This document shows positions 12,414-35,924 of a stretch of DNA of 36,966 bases, in pieces (positions within the stretch are counted from its first letter, which is position 1; each line of letters opens with the position of its first letter). The notes beneath the pieces were generated by a model that searched no databases, had not been told where the DNA came from, and saw only the letters and a program-made list of their open reading frames with translations. Origin of the DNA: Armatimonadaceae bacterium (GTDB lineage Bacteria > Armatimonadota > Armatimonadia > Armatimonadales > Armatimonadaceae). Position numbers and translations under genes: made by a program. Where the stretch lies: positions 1 to 36,966 of the forward strand of contig JAUJNC010000020.1 in NCBI GenBank assembly GCA_030446525.1, written 5' to 3'.

Positions 12414-12551
12414 CGCGGCACGGCGCCGGGCGCAGGTGTCACCCCGCTGGTGGAGTAGGCCCACGCCGCGATCGGGCGGCCCGCGGTGTCGCCGAACTGG
12501 TAGGCCGCTTCCGCCGTGGCGTCGAACCCCTTAAGGTCAGGCGTCCCTTCG
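12389..12551 (-). other. Possible 3' fragment of a gene downstream of cheW
   Basis: Reading leftwards past cheW, a minus-strand frame encodes GFDATAEAAYQFGDTAGRPI and ends RYVRYRSK with TAA at 12391-12389. It overlaps the plus-strand gene end by 25 bases and has no start of its own. The composition looks protein-like, but no family is recognised. It may be a remnant. Confidence 0.2.
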
Positions 12552-13082
12552 CAGCTCCTTGAGCGCCTCCGCGCCCTCGGCCCCGTTGGAAAGCGCCTTG
12601 CGCACGTCCAGCAGCAGGATCAGGCGCTCCTCGGCATCTTCCCTGCGCCGGTGCGTCGGGATGCGCCCGATGCCGGTGATGCAGTCGATGTCGCTCGAGG
12701 CCACCAGCCAGGAGGGCGGGTCGATCGAGGTCTCGGGCACGCGCAGCACCTCGGACACGGCGTCGACGATAAGGCCCGCGGTCAGGCCCTCCACGTCCAC
12801 GATCACGATGCGCGACGCTTTGTGCTTCTCCTCCGCGAGCGGCGGCAGGCCGAAGCGGGTCCTGAGGTCGATCACGGGCAGGATGCGCCCGCGCAGGTTC
12901 ATGACGCCCTTGACGAAGGGGGGGGTCCGGGGGACCCAGGTGATCGCCTGGGGCGTGATCACCGTGTGGATGTAGGCGATGTCGACGCCGTAGATCTCTT
13001 CGGCCAGGTGCAGGGCGACGATCTGGCGCTCCGCGCCGGACTCGGCCGGGGCCCCGGGCTTTTCCAAAAGTCCTGTGCTCAC
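12537..13082 (-). CDS. cheW: Chemotaxis adaptor CheW
   Basis: 181 residues with the CheW fold: QIVALHLAEEIYGVDIAYI (the ligand-like first strands), PFVKGVMNLRGRILPVIDLR (family signature), then RIVIVDVEGLTAGLIVDAV and VASSDIDCITGIGRI. It couples chemoreceptors to the CheA kinase; no cheA is in the window. Start is a GTG at 13082 with AAGGAA upstream. It is the last gene of the operon, 94 bases after the MCP stop, with a strong hairpin in between. Confidence 0.93.
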   Translation of the reverse strand: MSTGLLEKPGAPAESGAERQIVALHLAEEIYGVDIAYIHTVITPQAITWVPRTPPFVKGVMNLRGRILPVIDLRTRFGLPPLAEEKHKASRIVIVDVEGLTAGLIVDAVSEVLRVPETSIDPPSWLVASSDIDCITGIGRIPTHRRREDAEERLILLLDVRKALSNGAEGAEALKELRRDA

Positions 13083-13133
13083 CTTTGGTTCCTTTTACTG
13101 GTTACTGGACTGACGTTCTGGATGGCAGCATCC

Positions 13134-13161
13134 CACCCGGGGGTAGCCATACCCCCGGGTG
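13134..13161 (-). terminator. Intercistronic hairpin between mcp and cheW
   Basis: Perfect 12-bp inverted repeat (13134-13145 against 13150-13161) with a four-base loop. No T-tract follows on the minus strand, so it may attenuate, or protect the upstream mRNA 3' end, rather than terminate fully. That would lower cheW relative to the receptor gene. Confidence 0.45.
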
Positions 13162-13176
13162 ATCGTGCGTGGGTGG

Positions 13177-15138
13177 TTACGCGGCCTTGAGCAGAGTCAG
13201 AGTCGGTTTGCCCGCCGTCTGCCCCGTCTCCTCGACGCGGAACTGCGCCACGGCGGCCTCCAGGTCCCGGGCGATCGTGGACAGCTCCTCGGAGGAGGCC
13301 ACCAGCTCCTCGACCGAGGCGCTCGTCTGCTGGGTCGTGCCCGCCACCGTCTGCACCGAGGCCGAGACCTCCTCGGCCGAGGCCGACATCTCCTGCGTCG
13401 CCGTGCTGCTCTCTTCGACCACCGCCGCCACCTCGGCGATGCTTTTAGAAACCTCATCCGAGGCCGCCGTCATCTCCTCAGCGGCGGCACAGATACCCTG
13501 GACGCGGTCGGTGACCGTATGGACCACTTCCTGAATCCGCGCCAGCGCGCTGCCCGCCTGTTCCGCCAGCGCCGTCCCTGCCTCGACCTCGCGCGTGCCG
13601 GCCTCCATCGAGGCGACTGCCTGCCGGGTGCGGGTCTGGATGTTGGCGATCAGCGCGCTGATCTCGCGGGTGGCGTTCCCCGACCGTTCGGCCAGCTTTC
13701 GCACCTCATCCGCCACCACGGCGAATCCCCGACCCGCCTCGCCGGCGCGTGCCGCTTCGATGGCGGCGTTGAGGGCTAGCAGGTTGGTTTGCGCGGCGAT
13801 CTCGTCGATGGTCTGGATGATGGTGCCGATCTGGCCCGACGCCTCACCCAGGATATGGATCACCTCGGCGGATTCGGAAACCGTATGACGGATGCGGTGC
13901 ATGCCGGCGACGGTTTGGCTCACTGCCTGCCCACCCGCGGTGGCCACTTCCGTGGCGTCCGCGGTGGCTCTGGTGGCCATCTCCGCGTCGCGGGCGACGC
14001 TGCCCACGGTCTCGGCCAGCTGCCTGATGAGTTCGGCGCCTTCGGAGACGGAGCGGGCCTGGTTGGCGCTGCCCTGGGCGACCTCGCCCGCGCCGCGCGC
14101 TGACTGATCGCTAGCGTTCGCCACCTCCTGCATCGTGGCGGTGATCTCCTCGGTGGCGGCCCCCACCTGCTGCGCGGTACTGGCCAGCGTTCCCGATGCC
14201 GTAGCCACCTGCCCTGCGGACACCTGCAGCCGTCTTACCAGGTCGGACAGCGCCGCCTGCGACGTCTGGAACGATCCGGTGGTGGCCTTGACCTGATCCA
14301 GCATGTCATTGAAGGTCTTGGCTAAATCCCCGAACTCGTCTTTGGTGCGGATATCGAGCGGATCCGTGCCCGTTTCGATCTTGGCGGTCAGGTCACCGTG
14401 CTCCATCGCCTGGACGGCACTCGTGAGGTTGGTGATGCAAATGCTTTGCAGTTTGGCCAGCCGATCCATGACTTGCGTCAGGGTGCCGGTGATCCGGCGT
14501 GAGATGGCTATCGCCAAAATCCCCCCCAGGAGGAGGCTACCGCACAAGACGGCTATCACCCACAAGCGTGACGAGGCGTAGAGCTGGTCACCCAAACGGC
14601 TCGCTGTCTGTCCGCCCCTCATGTTCAGGTCGGCGAGTTCCAGCAGCGTTGCGCATGCGGCGTCAAATTCCTGCTGTGACTTTCCCCGGAGCACAGCCAG
14701 GGCTTCTTTCTTCCGGTTAAAGCGCGAGAGATCAACTACCTTGGTGTGCTGCTCCAGGTAGCTCGCCCACTGCGCCTTGAACTCCTCGTACCGCTTCTTT
14801 TCTTCACCGGAAGAGATCAGCTTCTCGTACGCAGCCTGATTGCTTTTGAGTGTGGCCAGCACCTTGTTCAGGTCTTTTTCCCTTGCGTCCATCTCCGCTT
14901 TTGTCGGCGAATTGATGTGCTGGAGTTCCGCGATGCGGAAGTCCGAGGTGTTGGTGTTCATGTCCGCGGTGACCTTGACGCTCGGCATCCAGTTGATCTC
15001 CATGTCCGTGGATGTCTGATTGACATCGCGCAACTTGAGGATAGAGAAGATGCCAAGGAAGGCCGTCAAGGCGAGAACGGCCAGAAAGCTTACCAGGAGC
15101 TTCCTTACGACTCGGAGATTATCGAACCAGTTAATCAT
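13177..15138 (-). CDS. Methyl-accepting chemotaxis protein
   Basis: 653 residues. TM1 at about 13-33 ([20 protein letters not shown]), a periplasmic four-helix-bundle sensor (about 34-188, with [10 protein letters not shown] typical of 4HB_MCP), TM2 at about 190-212, HAMP at about 213-290, then the cytoplasmic signalling coiled coil. Its tip carries [20 protein letters not shown] followed by [16 protein letters not shown]. The C-terminus [10 protein letters not shown] is usual for receptors that signal through CheW/CheA; no NWETF-type CheR tether is present. Its ATG overlaps the stop of the upstream GGDEF gene as ATGA. The ligand is unknown. Confidence 0.95.
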
Positions 15139-16607
15139 AACGTTTGCTCCTTAGGCGTGTTTCTTGCCGCAGGCTCTGTGATGGCGTTCTGGAAAAAATC
15201 CGCGGCATGGGTCACCCGGTTCCGGCCGCTTTCCTTGGAGCGATAAAGCGCCCTATCTGCCTGGGCGATTAGCTCAGCCCGGCTCCTCATGGCGGCGGTC
15301 AACGTGGCCACGCCAAAGCTGGCCGTCACCGGGCGCTGCGGCCACGGCGCCTGCCCGATCGCTGCCCGCAACCGCTCGGCTGCCGTGCGCGCGCCCGCAC
15401 AATCCGTGTGGGGCAGCACGACTACGAACTCCTCGCCGCCGTAACGGGCCGCAAAGTCGCTGTCGCGTGCGCCCCGCTGCAAGAGGTGCGCCACCGTTTG
15501 GAGCACCTGGTCGCCCGCGGGGTGGCCGAAGGTGTCGTTATACTGCTTGAAATGGTCCACGTCCAAAAGCAGCAGTGACAGCGGCGTGTTGTAGCGAAGA
15601 GTGCGCTCCCACTCCCTTTCCAACCGCTCCTGGAAGGCACGGTGGTTCTTCAGTCCGGTCAGCCCATCCAAGGTCGCGAGCGCTTCCAGCCGGGCGTTGG
15701 CTGCCTCCAACTCTCGTCGCTGCTCCAAGATCCGCTGTTCCTGCCGCTTGCGCTCGGTGATGTCGGTGGACGATCCCGCCATGCGCACAACCTCGTGATT
15801 CCGGTTCCACAGTGCCTGCCCCCGGTCCAGGATCCACTTGTAGCTGCCGTCCTTGCACCGGATGCGGTATTCGGCGACATAGAATTCGGTCTTCTTGTCG
15901 AAGTGGTCCTGGATCGCTTGCTGTACCCGGGCGATGTCGTCCGGATGCACCCGCTTGGTTCGTTGCTCGAGCGTACCCGCGATCTCGTACTTCTCGTAGC
16001 CCAGCATCTCCTTCCAGCGCGGGGAGAAGAAGGCATTGCCCGTCTTCACGTTCCAGTCCCAGATCCCGTCGTTGTTACCCCGCAAGGCGAGCTGCCACCG
16101 CTCCTCGCTCTCCCAGAGCGCCTCCTGCGCCAGCTTGCGCTCGGTGATATCCACGTTGGCGCTGATGCCGCCGGTGATCGTGTCGTTCGGGCCCCTGAGC
16201 GGGAACGTGTTGCACAGCAGGTGGCGCGTTGTGCCGTCCGGGTGCAGGTGCTCGCACTCCAGTCCTTCGTAGGTGTCGCCCGCGAACACGCTGGCGACCA
16301 GTGCCTTGGTGATCTCCCAATCCTGCGGGCGTCCGATGACCTCCCAGATCTTTTTGTGGAACACCTCGTGGGCGCGCAGCCCGAAGAGCGCTTCAAAGGC
16401 GCGATTCCATTCGAGGATGTGCCCCTCGGCGTCGTAGCAAAAGCACGCCACCGGCAGCCCTTGAAAAAGTTCCTGAAAGCGGCATGCCGACTGCTCAAGA
16501 AGGGCATTCATCTGGGCAAGGCTCTGGGCGTCGTGGTCGTGCTCCCGTCCCTGATTGCGTTCTTCGCGGGCCAGGCTCTGGCGGGCAATCTGCGTGTGTG
16601 CTTCCAT
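15135..16607 (-). CDS. PAS-PAS-GGDEF diguanylate cyclase
   Basis: 490 residues. Coiled N-terminus (about 1-30), PAS 1 (about 33-150: [20 protein letters not shown]), PAS 2 with PAC (about 155-285, ITERK after each), a coiled linker ([20 protein letters not shown]), then GGDEF (about 300-465). The active site is GGEEF at 390-394, and an RxxD product-inhibition site (R381-D384) stands exactly five residues before it, so it should make c-di-GMP and be feedback-inhibited. There are no membrane helices. Start ATG at 16607; the frame stays open upstream but runs antisense-like through cheX. The gene is coupled by ATGA overlap to the receptor gene, tying c-di-GMP synthesis to the chemotaxis operon. 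Confidence 0.93.
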
Positions 16608-16663
16608 CAGGTGCCGTTGGGATAGCAAAGATCTGCTTCTTCCGTTTCTTCCGTAATGTGAGG

Positions 16664-17128
16664 CTATTTCTTGCCTTGCAGCCCTACCGTGATGGACAGG
16701 TGACCCAGTGCTATCTCCAGCGGGATTACAATAGCCGGGATGGAAAGCGTACTGATTGTCACCTTGCTGCCGCGAACAATCGTCGGCGGCGTGATGTCGC
16801 ACACGTAGCCCGCCTCCGACAGGTGCAGCATGGCGTTGCCGCTGATCATGTTGCCCAGCTCGGCGATCGCGCTGGCCGCCAGCTGGTCGAAGATCTTGAT
16901 CGGCTGGCCCACCATCGCCGAAGCGACCTGATCGGCCGTGGTGAGCGACATGCCGTAGATCACCTGGCCCTCGATCTGCCCGGTCACGCCACACACCACG
17001 TTCACCTGCTGGCTGGTGAAGGAGGTGGGCTGCATCGCCAGGTTGCCCTTGGCCGGCGCCTGGCCCAGCACCATCTCCAGCACGGACGAGGAGGCGATCA
17101 CGAAGGGGTTGATAAGCTCGACCTTCAT
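16664..17128 (-). CDS. cheX: CheX-type CheY-phosphate phosphatase
   Basis: 154 residues matching the CheX/CheC/FliY phosphatase fold. The catalytic ExxN is ELGN (E90, N93) within IAELGNMISGNA. N-terminal MKVELINPFVIASSSVLEMV is the usual CheX opening. It dephosphorylates CheY-P and so terminates the signal. AGGAG lies seven bases before the ATG. It follows cheY by 12 bases and is certainly cotranscribed. Confidence 0.92.
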   Translation of the reverse strand: MKVELINPFVIASSSVLEMVLGQAPAKGNLAMQPTSFTSQQVNVVCGVTGQIEGQVIYGMSLTTADQVASAMVGQPIKIFDQLAASAIAELGNMISGNAMLHLSEAGYVCDITPPTIVRGSKVTISTLSIPAIVIPLEIALGHLSITVGLQGKK

Positions 17129-17140
17129 CTTGTGCTCCTG

Positions 17141-17503
17141 TTAGCCGATCAGCTTCTTGATGCTCTCGAGCACGCGCCCGGGCTCGAACGGCTTGACGAT
17201 GAAGTCCTTGGCGCCGGCCTGGATGGCCTCGACGACCATGTTCTTCTGCCCCGTGGCGGTGCACATGACGACCTTGGCCTCGGGGTCATTGCTCTTGATG
17301 GTGCGCGTGGCGGTGATGCCGTCCATGACGGGCATGGTGATGTCCATCAGCACCAGGTCGGGCTGGTGGGTGGCGTACTTGTCGACGGCCTCCTGGCCGT
17401 TGGCGGCCTCGTCGACCACCTCATAGCCGTTGGACGTCAAGATGTTCTTGAGGGTGGCGCGCATGAACATGGCGTCATCCGTGATCAGGATTTTTTTAGC
17501 CAT
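17141..17503 (-). CDS. cheY: Chemotaxis response regulator CheY
   Basis: A 120-residue single-domain receiver. Acid pocket D9/D10, phospho-acceptor D54 (LVLMDITMPVMDG), switch T82 and conserved K104 (FIVKPF). No output domain, so it probably acts on the flagellar or pilus motor, or as a shuttle. First gene of the minus-strand chemotaxis operon cheY-cheX-GGDEF-mcp-cheW; its phosphatase is encoded next door, while the kinase is elsewhere. Confidence 0.95.
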   Translation of the reverse strand: MAKKILITDDAMFMRATLKNILTSNGYEVVDEAANGQEAVDKYATHQPDLVLMDITMPVMDGITATRTIKSNDPEAKVVMCTATGQKNMVVEAIQAGAKDFIVKPFEPGRVLESIKKLIG

Positions 17504-23715: not shown

Positions 23716-24531
23716 TTATCGCACCACGCCTTCCAGCGGGCTGCTCGCCGAGGCGTAGGGCAGGACCGGCATCCGGCCCGCCCGGTATGCCGCGCGCCCG
23801 GCCTCGACGCCCAGCCGCATCGCCTCGGCCATCCGCGCGGGGTTCTGGGCGCGCGCGATGGCCGTGTTGATCAGGCAGGCGGACGCGCCCAGCTCCATGG
23901 ACAGGGCCGCATCGGAAGGCACGCCGATGCCCGCATCGACCACGACCGGCACCCGCGCCTGCTCGACGATGATGCGGATGCTGTCGAAGGTTTTCATGCC
24001 CTGCCCGCTGCCGATGGGCGACGCCAGCGGCATGACGGTCGCCGTGCCGATCTCCTGGAGCCGCGCGGCGAGGACGGGGTCGGCGTTGATGTAGGGCAGG
24101 ACGACGAAGCCCTCGTCCACCAGCACGCGGCACGCCTCGAACGTCCCGACCGGGTCGGGCAGCAGGTACTTGGGGTCGGGGATCACCTCGACCTTGATCC
24201 AGTCCGACAGCCCCATCGCGCGGGCGAGCCGGGCGGTGCGGATAGCCTCGTCCGCCGTGCGCGCGCCCGCCGTGTTGGGAAGGATATGGTAGCGCTGCCA
24301 GTCGATCTCGTCCAGGATGCTGCGCCGGGGCGCGTCCAGATCGATCCGGCGCAGCGCGACGGTCACGATCTCGCAGCCCGACGCTTCGAGCGCCGCGTTC
24401 ATCTCGTCGGCGTTCCGGTACTTGCCCGTGCCCAGCATCAGGCGCGAGCGGAAGCGTTTGCCGCCGATCTCCAGCAGCTCATCGTGCGCCGCCTGTGCGA
24501 CGGGCGGCGCGATTGGGTTTGCGATCGCCAT
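23716..24531 (-). CDS. thiG: Thiazole synthase ThiG
   Basis: 271 residues. It forms the thiazole phosphate from DXP, ThiS thiocarboxylate and dehydroglycine. Landmarks: [40 protein letters not shown], the Schiff-base lysine K113 in [31 protein letters not shown] and [25 protein letters not shown] lies just upstream of the ATG. It follows thiC by 13 bases. Confidence 0.97.
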
Positions 24532-24544
24532 CTGTTTCTCCTGG

Positions 24545-26441
<1,897 letters not shown>

Positions 26442-30636: not shown

Positions 30637-30876
30637 ATGACTGGACACCTTATCATTTTCGGCCAGGCCGTTCTGCTCATCGTCCTCGGTTTGATGTATG
30701 CTTACCTCAAAGGACTTCCAGGTCGCCTGCATCAAGAAGGAACTAAACGGCTGGAGTTCAGTCTTAACTCAAGGCTCGAAGCGGTAAAGGCAGATTTGTC
30801 TAAAGAGATCGAACTGCTGAAAATCAGCCAGGCTCAGTTGCAGGCCCAGAAAACCAATAGAGTTGTGGTGCATTAG
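30637..30876 (+). CDS. Small membrane-anchored coiled-coil protein, 3' end replaced by an IS
   Basis: Starts MTGHLIIFGQAVLLIVLGLM (one membrane helix), then YLKGLPGRLHQEGTKRLEFS and a charged coiled-coil region (SRLEAVKADLSKEIELLKIS). The last codons (RVVVH) come from the IS that begins at 30860. Without the IS the frame would end after about six more residues (NNDSFR), so the gene may already have been short. It looks like a cassette gene following the attC-like site. Function unknown. Confidence 0.55.
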   Translation: MTGHLIIFGQAVLLIVLGLMYAYLKGLPGRLHQEGTKRLEFSLNSRLEAVKADLSKEIELLKISQAQLQAQKTNRVVVH

Positions 30877-31927
30877 CGTTGAAGCCGTCTCCTGGCGTCT
30901 TTGTCCTTGCTTCGGTTTCAGGCCGCCGCATATTTCTTGAGCGGACGCACCGCGGTGCGCCGGTTGACCAGGCCCGCCACGACACGCACCACCGGAGAAG
31001 GATGCTCACGCCCATGACGGAACACCCGCCACAGAACCGCAAACCCATTGGTGAGCCAGCGCGTGCTCCACCACCATCCGATACCGCCACAGATGCCGGT
31101 GGTAAGCTTTGTGCTCCTCGGTCGGCGGGTGGCCGCGACGTGCCTTGAACGGCTGGTAAATGCGCGCGCCGGGGTGATCCTTCTGGAGGCCATCGTAGCC
31201 CTTGTGCGTCATCGCCGCCTCCTCCGGCGTCAGTCTGTCCAGCAACTTGGTCTGCCGCAGCAGCGTCCGGTCGTGGTTGGCGCCGCCCGGCGCTCTCGAG
31301 AGAGCATCGATGTGCCCATCCGGGCGCACGCCCACCTGGTTCTTGAGCGTGTGCGCCTTCTTCTTGCCCCAGTAGTAGGGCTTCTGCTGATCGTGGGCAG
31401 GCGTGTCGCCCTTGGTGCTCCTGGATGCGCTGCTCTTTGGCATCAATGACCAGACGAACGTCAGGAAAGGCATCCATCACCGCGTGCGGCGAGCGCAGCT
31501 TGGGCCGCTCGGGAGCAGGGCGCTCAAAGGCGAAGGTGCTCATGCTCTGCAAGGTAGCTAAAACATCCTTGAGATTGTCTTCGACATTAGTCTTGTTGAG
31601 CCCGAAGAAGAAGCCCAGGATCTCATAGGTGGTATAGACGCGCAGCCAGATGAGCGTCATCAGTAGCCGGTCGCGAAGGTCATGGCGGTGGGGCCCTCCG
31701 CCCCGCCAGACGCTGCCGGGGGCGTTTGTCGCGCTTCGTGATGTTGAGCGTGGCGCGGCGTCGGGCGTGGGCGGGTGCGAACTCTTCGTGGAGGGCGTCG
31801 AACTCGGCTACGCTCATGCCGGTCATGCTAACAAAGGCCCAGGGGCGGGCGGACAGCTTCTGATAGGTCACCGCAATAACGAAAGTTTACCAGACGAGAC
31901 GACAACAAAGCAATTGCGCCACAACTC
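30860..31927 (-). mobile_element. Insertion sequence, IS5-family-like (second IS)
   Basis: 1068 bp. Terminal repeats GAGTTGTGGTGCA (left, from 30860) and GAGTTGTGGCGCA (read inwards from 31927). TA flanks both ends (30858-30859, 31928-31929), the target duplication of the IS427-like subgroup. Confidence 0.8.
30918..31871 (-). pseudogene. IS5-like transposase with HTH and DDE_Tnp_4 regions, frameshifted
   Basis: Starts MTYQKLSARPWAFVSMTGMS at 31871 with FDALHEEFAPAHARRRATLN. A shifted frame has MTLIWLRVYTTYEILGFFFG, LNKTNVEDNLKDVLATLQSM and AFPDVRLVIDAKEQRIQ. Another shift leads to YYWGKKKAHTLKNQVGVRPD, MTHKGYDGLQKDHPGARIYQ and HLWRYRMVVEHALA, and a last one to VVRVVAGLVNRRTAVRPLKK. At least three breaks, so inactive as written. 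Confidence 0.75.
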
Positions 31928-32001: not shown

Positions 32002-32390
32002 TCACCCCGCGCGTCGGGCGGCGAAAAGGCGGTCTGCAAGTCGCCGTGCTCCTTGGAAGCCGGGCTCCGCGCGGTCGGCGTTAGTGCGCGGGTTGTGGTC
32101 GCTAAGGGCGGTCCCGAGAAAGACTGGCAGGCCCGCTACCCCCTCGCTCCCCACAATGCCCACGGATGCCCACTTCGGCCCTTGCCGTTCTCCAGGACCG
32201 TGAGGGTCGAGGCGACGCCGCTCTCGGGGAAGTAGACGTTCAGGATAGGCTTCGTGGGCTCGTAGATGCTCTCCCATATGCCGAAGGAGACCGCCTCAAG
32301 TTCCGATGGAAGATCCTGGTAACCTTCCCGGCATAGAGCGACGGGGAGACGGTTTCAGGGCGGTGCTGCGGGATCTCTGACGGTGGACAT
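32002..32390 (-). pseudogene. Crp/Fnr-family regulator, N-terminal sensor fragment
   Basis: Begins at ATG 32390 (MSTVRDPAAPP) and hits a TGA; NRLPVALCREGYQDLPSELE continues and FGIWESIYEPTKPILNVYFP is the cyclic-nucleotide-binding-like barrel. After a shift near 32190 comes SEGVAGLPVFLGTAL, closely similar to the GNEGMLGVPVFLGGG segment of the intact homologue at 33404-34138. Homology fades by about 32060, and the whole helix-turn-helix half is missing; the cassette/IS region abuts there. It is transcribed away from cheB over the operator pair at 32408-32460. Confidence 0.65.
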
Positions 32391-32407
32391 AAAAACCTTT
32401 GCCAAAG

Positions 32408-32460
32408 TGTGCGCTACCGTACACAAATGTGATATAACATGGTTTGTACGGTAGCGTACG
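32408..32460. promoter_or_regulatory. Paired operators and divergent promoter between crp fragment and cheB
   Basis: Two copies of TGTRCG-N4-CGTACR: TGTGCGCTACCGTACA (32408-32423) and TGTACGGTAGCGTACG (32445-32460). Their inner parts also form an 11-bp perfect inverted repeat (32413-32423 against 32445-32455). The A+T-rich core between them (GATATAAC) holds the likely -10 elements. The same arrangement recurs at 34157-34207. Confidence 0.65.
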
Positions 32461-32505
32461 TGATCCGTTGGCCCTATTCTACTCAATCCGCAGCAAGGAG
32501 AAAGC

Positions 32506-33162
32506 ATGCCCCACCGGCCCCAACCCAGTGTTGGACCTGTTTCCAGCGCCGCCTTTGATGTGGTGGCGGTCGCGGCGTCTTTGGGCGGCCTCAAAGCTAT
32601 CGAGCAGATCCTGTCGGCCCTTCCGGGTGGCTTCCCCGCGCCCATCCTGGTCGTGCAGCACCGTGATCCGCGCAGCGACAGCCTGCTTCCCGACCTCCTC
32701 TCCCGCCGAGCGCCCCTTCCCGTCAAGGGCGCGGAGCAAGGGGAACGTCTGCGCGGCGGGACGGTGTACGTGGCCCGCCCCGACCGGCACCTGCTGGTTT
32801 GCCCCGACAGGACGCTCGCACTCTCGGACGGGCCGAAGGTGGAGTTCACGCGCCCGTCGGCGAACCCGCTGTTCGCGTCGGTGGCGGCCTGTTTCCGGGA
32901 GCGCGCGATTGCCCTGGTCCTGACCGGCAAGCTCAAAGACGGCGCGGCGGGCGTGCGGGTGGTAAAGGCGGCGGGCGGTGCGGTACTGGCGCAGGACGAG
33001 GCCACGTCCCGGGCGTTCGGCATGCCCGGCGCGGCGATTGCCACCGGGTGCGTGGACCACGTGCTCCCCCTGGACCGGATCGCCCCGGCCCTGGTAACGC
33101 TGGTCATGGCAAGGTGCAGAGCCGTCCGGGAGGGGGACAGGCCGGGAAGGGAGCTACAGTGA
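32506..33162 (+). CDS. Stand-alone CheB-type methylesterase
   Basis: 218 residues. Catalytic triad of the CheB methylesterase domain: Ser25 (VAASLGGL), His52 (VVQHRDP) and Asp145 (GKLKDGAAG); strands LVVQH, GTVYVARPDRHLLV and VLTGKL are in place. The usual N-terminal receiver domain is absent, so activity would not be controlled by phosphorylation in the classical way. AAGGAG lies eight bases before the ATG at 32506. The last codons overlap the next gene (TGATG). It could demethylate the receptor encoded at 13177 or serve another array; there is no cheR in the window. Confidence 0.9.
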   Translation: MPHRPQPSVGPVSSAAFDVVAVAASLGGLKAIEQILSALPGGFPAPILVVQHRDPRSDSLLPDLLSRRAPLPVKGAEQGERLRGGTVYVARPDRHLLVCPDRTLALSDGPKVEFTRPSANPLFASVAACFRERAIALVLTGKLKDGAAGVRVVKAAGGAVLAQDEATSRAFGMPGAAIATGCVDHVLPLDRIAPALVTLVMARCRAVREGDRPGRELQ

Positions 33163-33383
33163 TGCAGAGCACGGTCAAAGAAACCCGCATCCGGCGCGAA
33201 GGGAACCGCGCGCACAAGGTGTGCGTCAAGCCCTCGGAGCTCGAAACCGTCCGCGCCGCGGGCGCGGCCTACGAAGACTACGCCGCGCGCCTGCGGGAGT
33301 TGTGCGAGAGGCGGGAACGGCTCGCCGTGTCGATCCGCCAGCACATCCGCATGTTCCGGCAATTGCAGCGGAAGGCGCGGTGA
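33162..33383 (+). CDS. 73-residue basic helical protein coupled to cheB
   Basis: ATG 33162 overlaps the cheB stop (TGATG), so it is translationally coupled. MQSTVKETRIRREGNRAHKV is followed by a predicted long helix rich in Arg and Glu (LRELCERRERLAVSIRQHIR). Unrecognised; the coupling suggests a partner or regulator of the CheB-like esterase. Confidence 0.65.
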   Translation: MQSTVKETRIRREGNRAHKVCVKPSELETVRAAGAAYEDYAARLRELCERRERLAVSIRQHIRMFRQLQRKAR

Positions 33384-33403
33384 GTAGAAAGGTGATAGCG
33401 GAT

Positions 33404-34138
33404 CTACTGCCCGGGCGGGCCGCCGACGAGCCGGTCGAACTCGCGGCGAATGACGCCGTAGCACTCGCAGGCGGCAGCCTCCAACCCCGGGCGGTCGATG
33501 ATGGTCATCTTGCCATGGGTGTAGCGGATCAGCCCCGCCTTCTGGAGCCGGCCCGCGGACTCCGTGACCCCGGCGCGGCGCACCCCCAGCATTGCGGCGA
33601 GGAACTCGTGCGTCAGCGGGAACGGGTCCGCGCCGCCCCCCACCCGGTCGTGGGTCATCAGCAGCCACCGGGCGCACCGCTGGTCGATGGAGTGGACAGG
33701 GTTGCAGGCGGCGCTTTGGGCGATCTGGCTCAGCAGCGCCTGCGTGTAGCGGTGCAGGATCTGCTGCAGCGCGCTCCCGCCCGCCGCCTGCTCGTTGAGC
33801 GTCTGCGCCCCCAGCCGCACCGTCTCGCCCGAGATCTGGCAGAAGCATCGGCCGGGGATCGAGCCGCCCCCCAGGAACACGGGCACACCCAGCATGCCTT
33901 CGTTGCCCACCGTCGCCACCTCGATCTGCTCACCCTCCTCCAGGACGATCATGATGGAATACACGCCCCGGCGCGGGAAGTAGACGTGCTCGATGGGCTG
34001 GTTCTTGTCATAGAGGATCTCCTTGAAGCCCAGCGTGACGACCTCCGCCGAAGCGAGCAGGGGCTCGTATTCCTCGCGGGGCAGCGCCGCAAGCAGGCGG
34101 TTTCGTTCCTCACTACCGGCGTCTTGTTCCACAGGCAT
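33404..34138 (-). CDS. Crp/Fnr-family transcriptional regulator
   Basis: 244 residues. An N-terminal cNMP-binding-like barrel (ILYDKNQPIEHVYFPRRGVY, VATVGNEGMLGVPVFLGGGS) is joined by a dimer helix to a Crp-type winged helix (LTHEFLAAMLGVRRAGVTES with GLIRYTHGKMTIIDRPGLEA). The cAMP-contacting arginine/serine motif of CRP is not evident and there is no cysteine cluster as in FNR, so the ligand is unknown. It converges with the 73-residue gene (20 bases between stops) and is read away from the 34287 gene across an operator pair, which suggests autoregulation. Confidence 0.9.
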   Translation of the reverse strand: MPVEQDAGSEERNRLLAALPREEYEPLLASAEVVTLGFKEILYDKNQPIEHVYFPRRGVYSIMIVLEEGEQIEVATVGNEGMLGVPVFLGGGSIPGRCFCQISGETVRLGAQTLNEQAAGGSALQQILHRYTQALLSQIAQSAACNPVHSIDQRCARWLLMTHDRVGGGADPFPLTHEFLAAMLGVRRAGVTESAGRLQKAGLIRYTHGKMTIIDRPGLEAAACECYGVIRREFDRLVGGPPGQ

Positions 34139-34156
34139 CCGTTATTTTCACTTTCT

Positions 34157-34207
34157 GGTGCGCTCACGTACAGAATATGATACGATGTCACTGTACGCTG
34201 ACGTACA
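34157..34207. promoter_or_regulatory. Paired operators and divergent promoter of the intact crp divergon
   Basis: TGTACGCTGACGTACA (34192-34207) is a perfect copy of the motif TGTACG-N4-CGTACA; GGTGCGCTCACGTACA (34157-34172) is a weaker second copy 35 bases away. AATATGATACG between them holds the probable -10 boxes. The first site is 19 bases from the crp start, against 18 bases in the other divergon. Confidence 0.65.
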
Positions 34208-34286
34208 ATTTCTCCTGTCTGTTTCTACCCATCCGACGCCGTGTTCAAAAGAGCCGAGAAGGCGCAGGCAGGGAAAGGGAAACCCC

Positions 34287-34512
34287 GTGCATAGTGACGT
34301 TGCGACGCTGCAAGAAGCCATCGATCGAGACATCGCGGCCGAGGCCAAAAGCGCCCCCGGGGTGGGAAGAACTCGGTCTTCGTCTGCCCCGAGTGCGGCG
34401 GCGTGCTATGGCCGGTTCGCGGGGGGCGCGCTCCACGACGACGCCTGCCTGCTATTGGCGCGGCGCGCTTAACACCTCGGCCCGGTTCCAGCACCGCCAG
34501 GGCGGGAGATAG
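34287..34512 (+). pseudogene. Small zinc-ribbon protein resembling a CheB C-terminal extension, frameshifted
   Basis: GTG 34287 (GGGAAAGGG upstream) gives VHSDVATLQEAIDRDIAAEA; after one shift near 34360 the frame reads KNSVFVCPECGGVLWPVRGG, and the tail ALNTSARFQHRQGGR ends at 34512. CPECGG-LW is the zinc-ribbon motif found after the esterase domain of many stand-alone CheB proteins; the expected second cysteine pair is not clear. It is followed by a strong terminator. Its pairing with a divergent crp gene mirrors the complete cheB divergon at 32390-33162. Confidence 0.45.
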
Positions 34513-34638: not shown

Positions 34639-34983
34639 TCACGAGGAGGGCTGTCCTTCGCTCTGGGTAGGAAGTCCGGCGTCCACCCAGTCCTGCTTGC
34701 CTTCCGCATAGTCCTTGACGTTCGTGTATCCCATCGCCGCCAGTTCACGGGCGACGTTCTCCGAGGCGTTTCAGGTGGGGTTGCTGCAGTAGACCACGAT
34801 CTCGGCGGCTTTGTCCGGCAGGAGCGCGGGGGCGAGCTGCGTTGCCTCGTTGGGCGGCAGGTTGATGGCTCCGGGCAGGTGCTGCGCCTGGTACATGAAC
34901 GGCGCGAGGGTCTCGACAAGCCGGAAGTCTTCGGCCCGATCCAGCTTGGCCTTCAGCTCTTCCCGGCTGATGGTTGGGACCAT
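34639..34983 (-). CDS. Rhodanese-like protein with in-frame UGA (possible selenoprotein)
   Basis: ATG 34983 with AAGGAG seven bases upstream. A single rhodanese domain: ISREELKAKLDRAEDFRLVE, HLPGAINLPP and the active loop VVYCSNPT with catalytic Cys66. Codon 71 is TGA (34773-34771), after which the same frame continues with family-like sequence (ASENVARELAAMGYTNVKDY, GKQDWVDAGLP) to a normal stop at 34639, 114 codons in all. Relatives carry YCxxPxC here, so TGA replaces the second cysteine. A 7-bp stem with 8-base loop (34756-34735) begins 14 bases after the TGA. Alternatives: sequencing error (TGC to TGA), or a nonsense mutation. Confidence 0.75.
34735..34756 (-). promoter_or_regulatory. Possible bacterial SECIS-like hairpin
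   Basis: CGTCGCC pairs with GGCGGCG (one G-U) around loop CGTGAACT. The loop starts 21 bases after the UGA and has G at its second position, meeting the loose bacterial SECIS rules (loop 3-14 bases, 16-37 bases from UGA, early G). Such hairpins arise by chance in GC-rich DNA. Confidence 0.25.
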
Positions 34984-35120
34984 GTTTGCTCTCCTTACGG
35001 CGGGCGGATATCCCGCCCGCCGTATCTTTACCCGCCTATGCAGGGGAGTTATGCAGAGGCGCGAGGTGGGACGCGATAGCGCCGGAAGGGGCGCCCGGAG
35101 GGGAGTCAGCGTCGTCCACA

Positions 35121-35924
35121 TCATCCTCCCGATCCTGACGCTCCCGACTCTGCGGGCCCCATCTGGTCCAGCTTCGCGGCATAAACGGCGGCGACACCAG
35201 GATAGGCGTGAGCTATCTCCTCGCGGCCTGCGGGGCGCAGGGCATAAACACCGCGCTCCAGCCGCTCGAACCAGCCGTAGACATTCCTGAACAAGATGCT
35301 CTGGGTCTTGGGACTGGCGCCCAGAGCGCGCAGGGCGCGGGGAGTCATCGGGCCGGATCGTTCCAGGCAGCAGGCGATGAAGATAGCCTGCTCGCGGTAG
35401 GCAGTCAGGATCGCCCGTCCCCCGGTGCCCCCGACGTTGTAATCGCCGGAGCGGCCCGCGATCTCCCGCAGGATGGCGTGGCGCACCCCGGGCTTGCGGC
35501 GCGGCCTGGGGACGCTCACCGGGTGAAAGACGAGCTCGACTACCGGCGGGGCGTCCCTATCGTCCGGGAAGTGGACCAGGAGGAGGCCTATTTCAAGCCG
35601 CTTCAGGAGGCGCTCGATGCCGCGCCACCGCTTGCTGTGGCGGTCCCGCCGCTGAGGACTGCCCTCTACCGGCAGGGCGACGTACACGCTGTCGGCCACG
35701 CGCTGCCGCTCCGCGGCCTGTATCAGCAGGTCTGTGGAGAACGACTTCTTCATCTCGATGACGATGAGCCGGTCGCCGTCGAGCGCGGTGATGTCGCATC
35801 CATTGACCTCACTGCGGACGGTGTAGCCGTGTGCGCTCAGGTAGCGTTGGATCGGCGGCGACAGGTCGCACTCGAGGCGTCTGGAAAGGGCTGTCCTGGG
35901 TTTTGGGGAAGCAGCAGAGGCCAC
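35121..35924 (-). CDS. DUF2161 protein with PD-(D/E)xK nuclease-like core
   Basis: 267 residues, GTG start at 35924. GCDITALDGDRLIVIEMKKS has the D...ExK pattern of restriction-endonuclease-fold enzymes, followed by AAERQRVADSVYVALP. The family signature GRSGDYNVGGTGGRAILTAY and the C-terminal winged-helix-like segment TPRALRALGASPKTQSILFR are clear. DUF2161 (PF09929) proteins are annotated as putative phosphodiesterases of unknown role. No obvious partner gene. Confidence 0.85.
   Translation of the reverse strand: MASAASPKPRTALSRRLECDLSPPIQRYLSAHGYTVRSEVNGCDITALDGDRLIVIEMKKSFSTDLLIQAAERQRVADSVYVALPVEGSPQRRDRHSKRWRGIERLLKRLEIGLLLVHFPDDRDAPPVVELVFHPVSVPRPRRKPGVRHAILREIAGRSGDYNVGGTGGRAILTAYREQAIFIACCLERSGPMTPRALRALGASPKTQSILFRNVYGWFERLERGVYALRPAGREEIAHAYPGVAAVYAAKLDQMGPAESGASGSGG

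Follow-up and report, generated by a model that had tools for sequence, protein, structure and literature searches.

A predicted operator for a widespread Crp subfamily and its recurrence beside a receiver-less CheB gene

Among the described relatives of the system considered here, the Escherichia coli autoregulators CRP and FNR recognize half-sites reading TGTGA or TTGAT, and the sites of cAMP-CRP regulators take the form TGTGA-N6-TCACA. NtcA, the nitrogen regulator of cyanobacteria, has a consensus that we take to be GTA-N8-TAC. The chemotaxis methylesterase CheB, represented by PDB entries 1chd, 1a2o and 3sft, is controlled in the textbook account of adaptation by phosphorylation. Here, we describe a locus in which a Crp-family regulator and a CheB that lacks a receiver domain occur together, in a stretch of 36,966 nucleotides from an Armatimonadaceae bacterium (assembly GCA_030446525.1, contig JAUJNC010000020.1, positions 1 to 36,966), referred to throughout as the window. 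Comparison with other genomes suggests that the 16-bp palindrome TGTnCG-N4-CGnACA is the operator of an uncharacterised and widespread Crp subfamily, and that in some genomes it may also serve a divergently transcribed cheB. The features concerned are as follows.

32113..32390, minus strand: crp1 pseudogene, corresponding to Crp residues 1-90 and interrupted by a stop and a frameshift, DNA-binding part missing
32408..32423: operator 1a, TGTGCGCTACCGTACA, on the side of the crp1 remnant
32445..32460: operator 1b, TGTACGGTAGCGTACG, nearer cheB, 14 of its 16 bases equal to the reverse complement of operator 1a
32506..33162, plus strand: cheB, a 218-aa stand-alone CheB methylesterase domain with no receiver and the Ser/His/Asp triad kept
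33162..33383, plus strand: 73-aa open reading frame (ORF) that starts at an ATG overlapping the stop of cheB (TGATG)
33404-34138, minus strand: crp2, an intact Crp/Fnr-family regulator of 244 aa, with C145, H149, C224 and C226 invariant in close relatives
34157..34172: operator 2a, GGTGCGCTCACGTACA, nearer crp2, first letter G
34192..34207: operator 2b, TGTACGCTGACGTACA, arms perfectly palindromic
34308..34426, plus strand: C-terminal tail of a CheB (CPECGG) surviving as a remnant in two frames, catalytic domain absent

The two intergenic regions carry four copies of TGTnCG-N4-CGnACA, beginning at 32408, 32445, 34157 and 34192. With no more than one mismatch to TGTRCG-N4-CGTACR, the window yields seven strand-matches, all at these four places, compared with a mean of 0.64 and a maximum of 5 in dinucleotide shuffles (n = 100), none of which reached seven. 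The initial annotation had placed paired 16-bp operators at both crp-cheB intergenic regions, and all four copies are confirmed, as is the spacing that it gave, in which the first operator is 18 and 19 bases away from the two crp starts and the second 37 and 35 further on. A sequence identical to operator 2b (TGTACGCTGACGTACA) is found in a Chloroflexota genome, G066, at position 2473 of locus L179, where it lies ~100 bp upstream of a PAS-GGDEF-EAL gene and ~4 kb from a crp gene of the same family.

The product of crp2, which had been called intact, is indeed a complete protein of the Crp type. It carries a Crp-type helix-turn-helix (HTH) domain (PF13545, 61.6 bits against a cut-off of 27), and its candidate effector domain scores 26.5 bits with PF00027, the family of domains that bind cyclic nucleotide monophosphates (cNMP), for which the cut-off is 27.5. 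The AlphaFold2 model (pLDDT 89.5) has the overall Crp fold, and its Foldseek matches include structures of GlxR, MtbCRP (CRP), NtcA and FNR at E values of about 1e-11 to 1e-13. Crp2 shares with the E. coli autoregulators CRP and FNR this fold and the HTH domain, together with a 16-bp two-fold-symmetric site with TGT...ACA ends at its own gene. It differs from them in the half-site of its family, TGTnCG, in the cNMP-binding score that falls short of the Pfam cut-off, and in the possession of helices after the wing that bear a CxC motif. Sites of the Crp2 family do not follow the cAMP-CRP form, reading TGTnCG-N4-CGnACA rather than TGTGA-N6-TCACA. NtcA is the best match to Crp2 both in NCBIfam and among PDB sequences, and two of the four window operators fit the presumed NtcA consensus; however, Crp2 scores 28 bits against a cut-off of 244.95 for the NtcA family TIGR03697, and operators elsewhere in the Crp2 family vary at the A of TGTA. 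Residues C145, H149, C224 and C226 are kept in 40 of 40 aligned close relatives and in 47, 47, 47 and 45, respectively, of 51 members of the wider family. In the model, C145 ends a long helix, and C224 and C226 are located at C-terminal helices beyond the usual Crp wing. Our guess is that this set of Cys-x3-His and Cys-x-Cys might form a metal or redox site.

The claim of an intact CheB esterase in one of the divergent pairs also stands. The methylesterase domain PF01339 (195.7 bits) is the sole Pfam domain found in the 218 residues, leaving no receiver, and the Ser, His and Asp of the catalytic triad align with those of 3sft and 6ymz. The domain and triad are common to this protein and the chemotaxis methylesterases, but it has Leu in place of Thr after the catalytic Ser and Lys in place of Met near the Asp when set against 3sft, falls below the NCBIfam cut-offs for CheB (175 against 342 bits and 167 against 293), and differs from receiver-bearing CheB proteins in domain content. 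The 73-aa ORF is probably co-translated with cheB; a family scan of it gave no significant match.

Evidence that the operator is a property of the regulator comes from the relatives of Crp2. When the 350 bp before each crp gene of the family were scanned, TGTnCGnTAnCGnACA was found at two mismatches or fewer upstream of 29 of 51 genes and at one or none upstream of 12, compared with 24 and 3, respectively, of 1136 control windows taken from other parts of these loci. Letter shuffles of 52 upstream regions gave an expectation of 0.5 at the laxer threshold (52 copies because L002 and L131 are the same gene; L002 is dropped elsewhere, giving 51 rows, and the Crp of L199 is left out of all of these counts). 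The site also follows the recognition helix: members with LGVRR have it, at two mismatches or fewer, in 27 of 37 cases and those with LGSRR in none of 10, the contrast between the VR group and all others (2 of 14) giving a Fisher p of 0.0003 uncorrected for kinship. Carriers include Collimonas, Halomonas, Aidingimonas, Rubrivivax, a planctomycete and Chloroflexota. These associations support assigning TGTnCG-N4-CGnACA, as a predicted operator, to a Crp subfamily spread over several phyla, and autoregulation, already proposed for the window, is the natural reading of a site so often found upstream of the regulator's own gene. Most family members have neighbours other than cheB. For a subfamily of this size and spread, a likely operator would make the regulons of its members predictable.

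The motif might have proved frequent without any association with these genes, and for the most part it did not. Ten of 21 genomes contain the exact form, at 17 places in all, compared with one for the reversed pattern. Five of the 17 adjoin crp; the 12 places elsewhere do not share the association. Five of the 12 have one and the same sequence, which at the four loci seen lies at the start of an acyl-carrier-protein-like gene and looks inherited, and one of the other seven lies upstream of a SYLF-like gene. With a looser pattern, 14 genomes yielded 128 strand-matches, compared with 31 for the control; eight of the 128 belong to one repeat array. In the open-licence literature, no operator for this Crp subfamily was found, nor anything relevant on the motif, on linkage of Crp and CheB or on receiver-less CheB, although papers that spell the family name with a slash may be missed.

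Some members of the subfamily are arranged in ways of their own. Tandem crp paralogs are found in Proteobacteria at L001, L003, L004, L005, L007, L008 and L021, and mostly both copies have an operator-like site upstream, the exceptions being the first copy of L001 and the second of L005 (three mismatches). In Betaproteobacterium UKL13-2 (L017, 3735-4001), two family crp genes diverge over a single shared site, TGTCTGATAACAAACA. Within one genome, TGTTTGCTAACGCACA (in L182, TGTTTGATACCGCACA) recurs at a constant position upstream of several genes for long secreted repeat proteins (L181, L182 and L183; identified by eye), and at L181 and L183 a transposase-like ORF, also identified by eye, lies on its other side.

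The arrangement of crp, operator and cheB recurs in two distant genomes. CheB searches were run at an E value of 0.001 in Chloroflexota (201 genomes) and the order of G062 (47), from which the best loci were examined, at 1e-38 in Planctomycetota (246) and Gemmatimonadota (150), and at 1e-42 in Pseudomonadota (398), the phylum of G009 (198) and the phylum of G012 (149). Flanks of about 1.5 kb were examined at 67 CheB loci, two of which have a divergent Crp of the family. At L046, in the Chloroflexota genome G062, Crp and CheB are 51% and 50% identical to those of the window, with TGTACGTTCGCATACA between the genes. At L199, in G1224, a genome from the same phylum as G009, the record of which bears the label Nitrospirota, the identities are 50% and 43%; the genes are ~60 bp apart if crp starts at ATG 1421, and TGTACGTTACCGTACT lies between them, ending 17 bp before the cheB ATG. 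No Crp was found at the 12 CheB loci from Planctomycetota (5 of 246 genomes) and Gemmatimonadota (7 of 150) or beside the CheB of the single genome with a match in the phylum of G012 (1 of 149). Pseudomonadota gave no CheB at 1e-42 in any of 398 genomes, a set that lacks a known positive, so that the result proves little. The pairing of Crp with CheB is probably real regulation, and co-regulation of crp and cheB in the recurring divergons is, as a prediction from sequence, well supported. A broad regulon of the motif in G1224 and G062 was rejected because the relaxed motif is near background in both (14 against 9 in the control for G1224; 10 against 9 for G062, where the pattern misses the genome's own divergon site, and an earlier pattern that covers it gave 4 against 1). 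This suggests a local switch in these genomes.

We therefore turn to what such a switch might do in the window, for which two hexamers are of importance.

32433..32438, plus strand: candidate -10 hexamer of cheB, TATAAC, 9 nt after operator 1a
34177..34182, minus strand: candidate -10 hexamer of crp2, TATCAT, 9 nt after operator 2b

The best -10-like hexamers stand 8-9 nt from an operator at the window's cheB and crp2, as does TATAAT at the crp of G062, and the second operator of the window covers the expected start point. The operators flank an AT-rich core and lie over the presumed -35 element and start point of both promoters, a geometry that suggests repression. We consider it moderately probable that dimers of the Crp2 subfamily bind the 16-bp palindrome and regulate their own gene, and that the same intergenic operator also serves the divergent receiver-less cheB, in the window and in at least two other genomes, with control probably by repression. 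Crp2 would hold down its own gene and cheB until some signal released it, and CheB, having no inhibitory receiver domain, would be set by its amount rather than by phosphorylation.

At looser thresholds, the operators of the window stand out less. At two mismatches or fewer, the window has only a weak excess of matches (17 against 9.5 in shuffles, 4 of 100 of which were as high), and lenient operator pairs (three mismatches or fewer to TGTACG-N4-CGTACA, copies 20-45 bp apart) turned up in 21 of 300 shuffles, so that a single weak pair is unremarkable alone; two better pairs, at both crp genes, are striking. Other observations weigh against the reading given above. The operator is missing, at two mismatches or fewer, from 22 of the 51 family genes, and no CheB was found near crp in L001-L021 or L120-L138. 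Only 2 of 67 CheB loci have a Crp neighbour, and the three divergon Crps, or CheBs, do not form a common clade in trees with several long branches, which implies that the linkage was made or lost more than once. These last two points would also fit coincidental neighbourhood in G062 and G1224, with the operator serving crp alone, an account that we find improbable given that the divergent order, operator included, is common to three distant genomes and that the G1224 genes, for a crp start at ATG 1421, lie close together around a site that ends just before cheB.

Other points concern the promoters. A sigma-70 scan found no full promoter, and the sign of control is accordingly our inference; among the 29 members that carry the operator, 16 lack a -10-like hexamer within 30 nt. 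The best such hexamer in G1224 is 14 nt from the operator, that in the direction of the window's cheB remnant is at 3 nt, and towards crp1 the hexamers, 8 and 10 nt away, match at no more than 4 of 6 positions. In five related proteobacterial genes (two from Collimonas and one each from a Halomonas, Aidingimonas lacisalsi and Betaproteobacterium UKL13-2), TATACT follows the operator at a distance of 19-20 nt, read towards crp. This gap is one helical turn further than 8-9 nt, as at activated promoters, and puts the operator centre near -40, which we take to be the class II position. Crp2 might accordingly use the same operator and the same co-regulation to activate itself and cheB, as at class II FNR and CRP promoters. 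We judge activation to be unlikely in the window, where the cheB and crp2 hexamers, like that of the G062 crp, are just 8-9 nt off and the second operator sits over the expected start.

Both divergent pairs also show damage. The first Crp had been described as truncated; the copy is damaged, but it is a pseudogene rather than a truncated protein. Residues 1-70 match Crp2 at 41% with an internal stop, residues 74-90 follow in another frame, and comparison with Crp2 revealed nothing credible beyond about residue 90. Likewise, the small CPECGG protein said to be like a CheB tail does resemble the tail encoded 3' of the catalytic domain in some longer CheB genes, but is a two-frame remnant and not a protein. 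The initial annotation took the divergon for a duplicated module; a recent duplication is rejected because the Crp copies are too different and the CheB lost from the second module was of the tail-bearing type. A broken-looking DDE transposase (30824-31890) adjoins the crp1 remnant and may have helped to truncate crp1. Frameshifts also seem to be present in other genes of the window, for example in thiC (24545-25846), which looks, by eye, internally frameshifted; the contig may carry sequence errors, and single frameshifts may be among them, but such errors do not explain the missing Crp and CheB domains. Both modules could, in principle, be decaying relics whose operators persist through recency and regulate nothing important, as the state of crp1, of the second CheB and of the adjoining transposase would have it. 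We give this little credence, since neither crp2 nor cheB is broken, the operators have been well preserved and other lineages carry the divergon too. With crp1 dead and its operators and cheB intact, the regulator at the cheB operators is probably Crp2, working in trans.

What the CheB of such a switch would act upon is a separate matter. The window contains a chemotaxis-type cluster (12537..17503), 15-20 kb from the divergons on the same contig.

12537-13082, minus strand: CheW
13177-15138, minus strand: methyl-accepting chemotaxis protein (MCP)
15138-16514 (as scanned), minus strand: PAS-GGDEF protein
16664-17128, minus strand: CheX
17141-17503, minus strand: CheY-like receiver

The MCP/CheW cluster has no operator at one mismatch or fewer, and one match with two mismatches lies at 15386, inside the PAS-GGDEF coding region. 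Control of receptor demethylation, the role proposed at the outset, is conjecture for a CheB that has no receiver. A survey for MCPs covered G062, nine further Chloroflexota genomes in which a close stand-alone CheB occurs, G066 and G010. G062 has five; all nine of the other Chloroflexota gave no match, although some may be incomplete, and neither G066 nor G010, the completeness of which is uncertain, gave one either. Also speaking against chemotaxis, the divergon of G1224 is located among hemerythrin, SDR, PRC-barrel, polyketide-cyclase, DUF421 and CBM48 genes, and operators in Collimonas adjoin stress-type genes (DUF883-like, SYLF-like and NRAMP-like, named by eye). That CheB belongs to a stress-response module, acts on a protein other than an MCP and has no part in chemotaxis, the Crp subfamily being a stress regulator, comes close to an even chance on the strength of these neighbours and of the nine genomes; the five MCPs of G062 and the MCP, CheW, CheX and CheY-like receiver of the window point the other way. 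Returning to a switch that acts on methylation, we offer only tentatively, and with some doubt, the idea that a Crp-family sensor sets the level of receiver-less CheB through transcription, so that a slow environmental signal would reset the methylation of receptors or sensors, with the Cys/His set as a possible metal or redox site. Transcriptional control of CheB in place of phosphorylation, should it operate here, would be a departure from textbook adaptation control.

Three further observations concern the window at large. A 6-kb portion had no match in a plasmid collection. ThiG has 81-92% matches among at least 120 listed, and the only two of these that bear organism names are from Capsulimonadaceae and Fimbriimonadaceae, two families of Armatimonadota.

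23719-24531: ThiG

Finally, a DUF2161 protein of PD-(D/E)XK type (35121-35924) adjoins a broken-looking rhodanese-like gene, the two together occupying the region 34771-35924.

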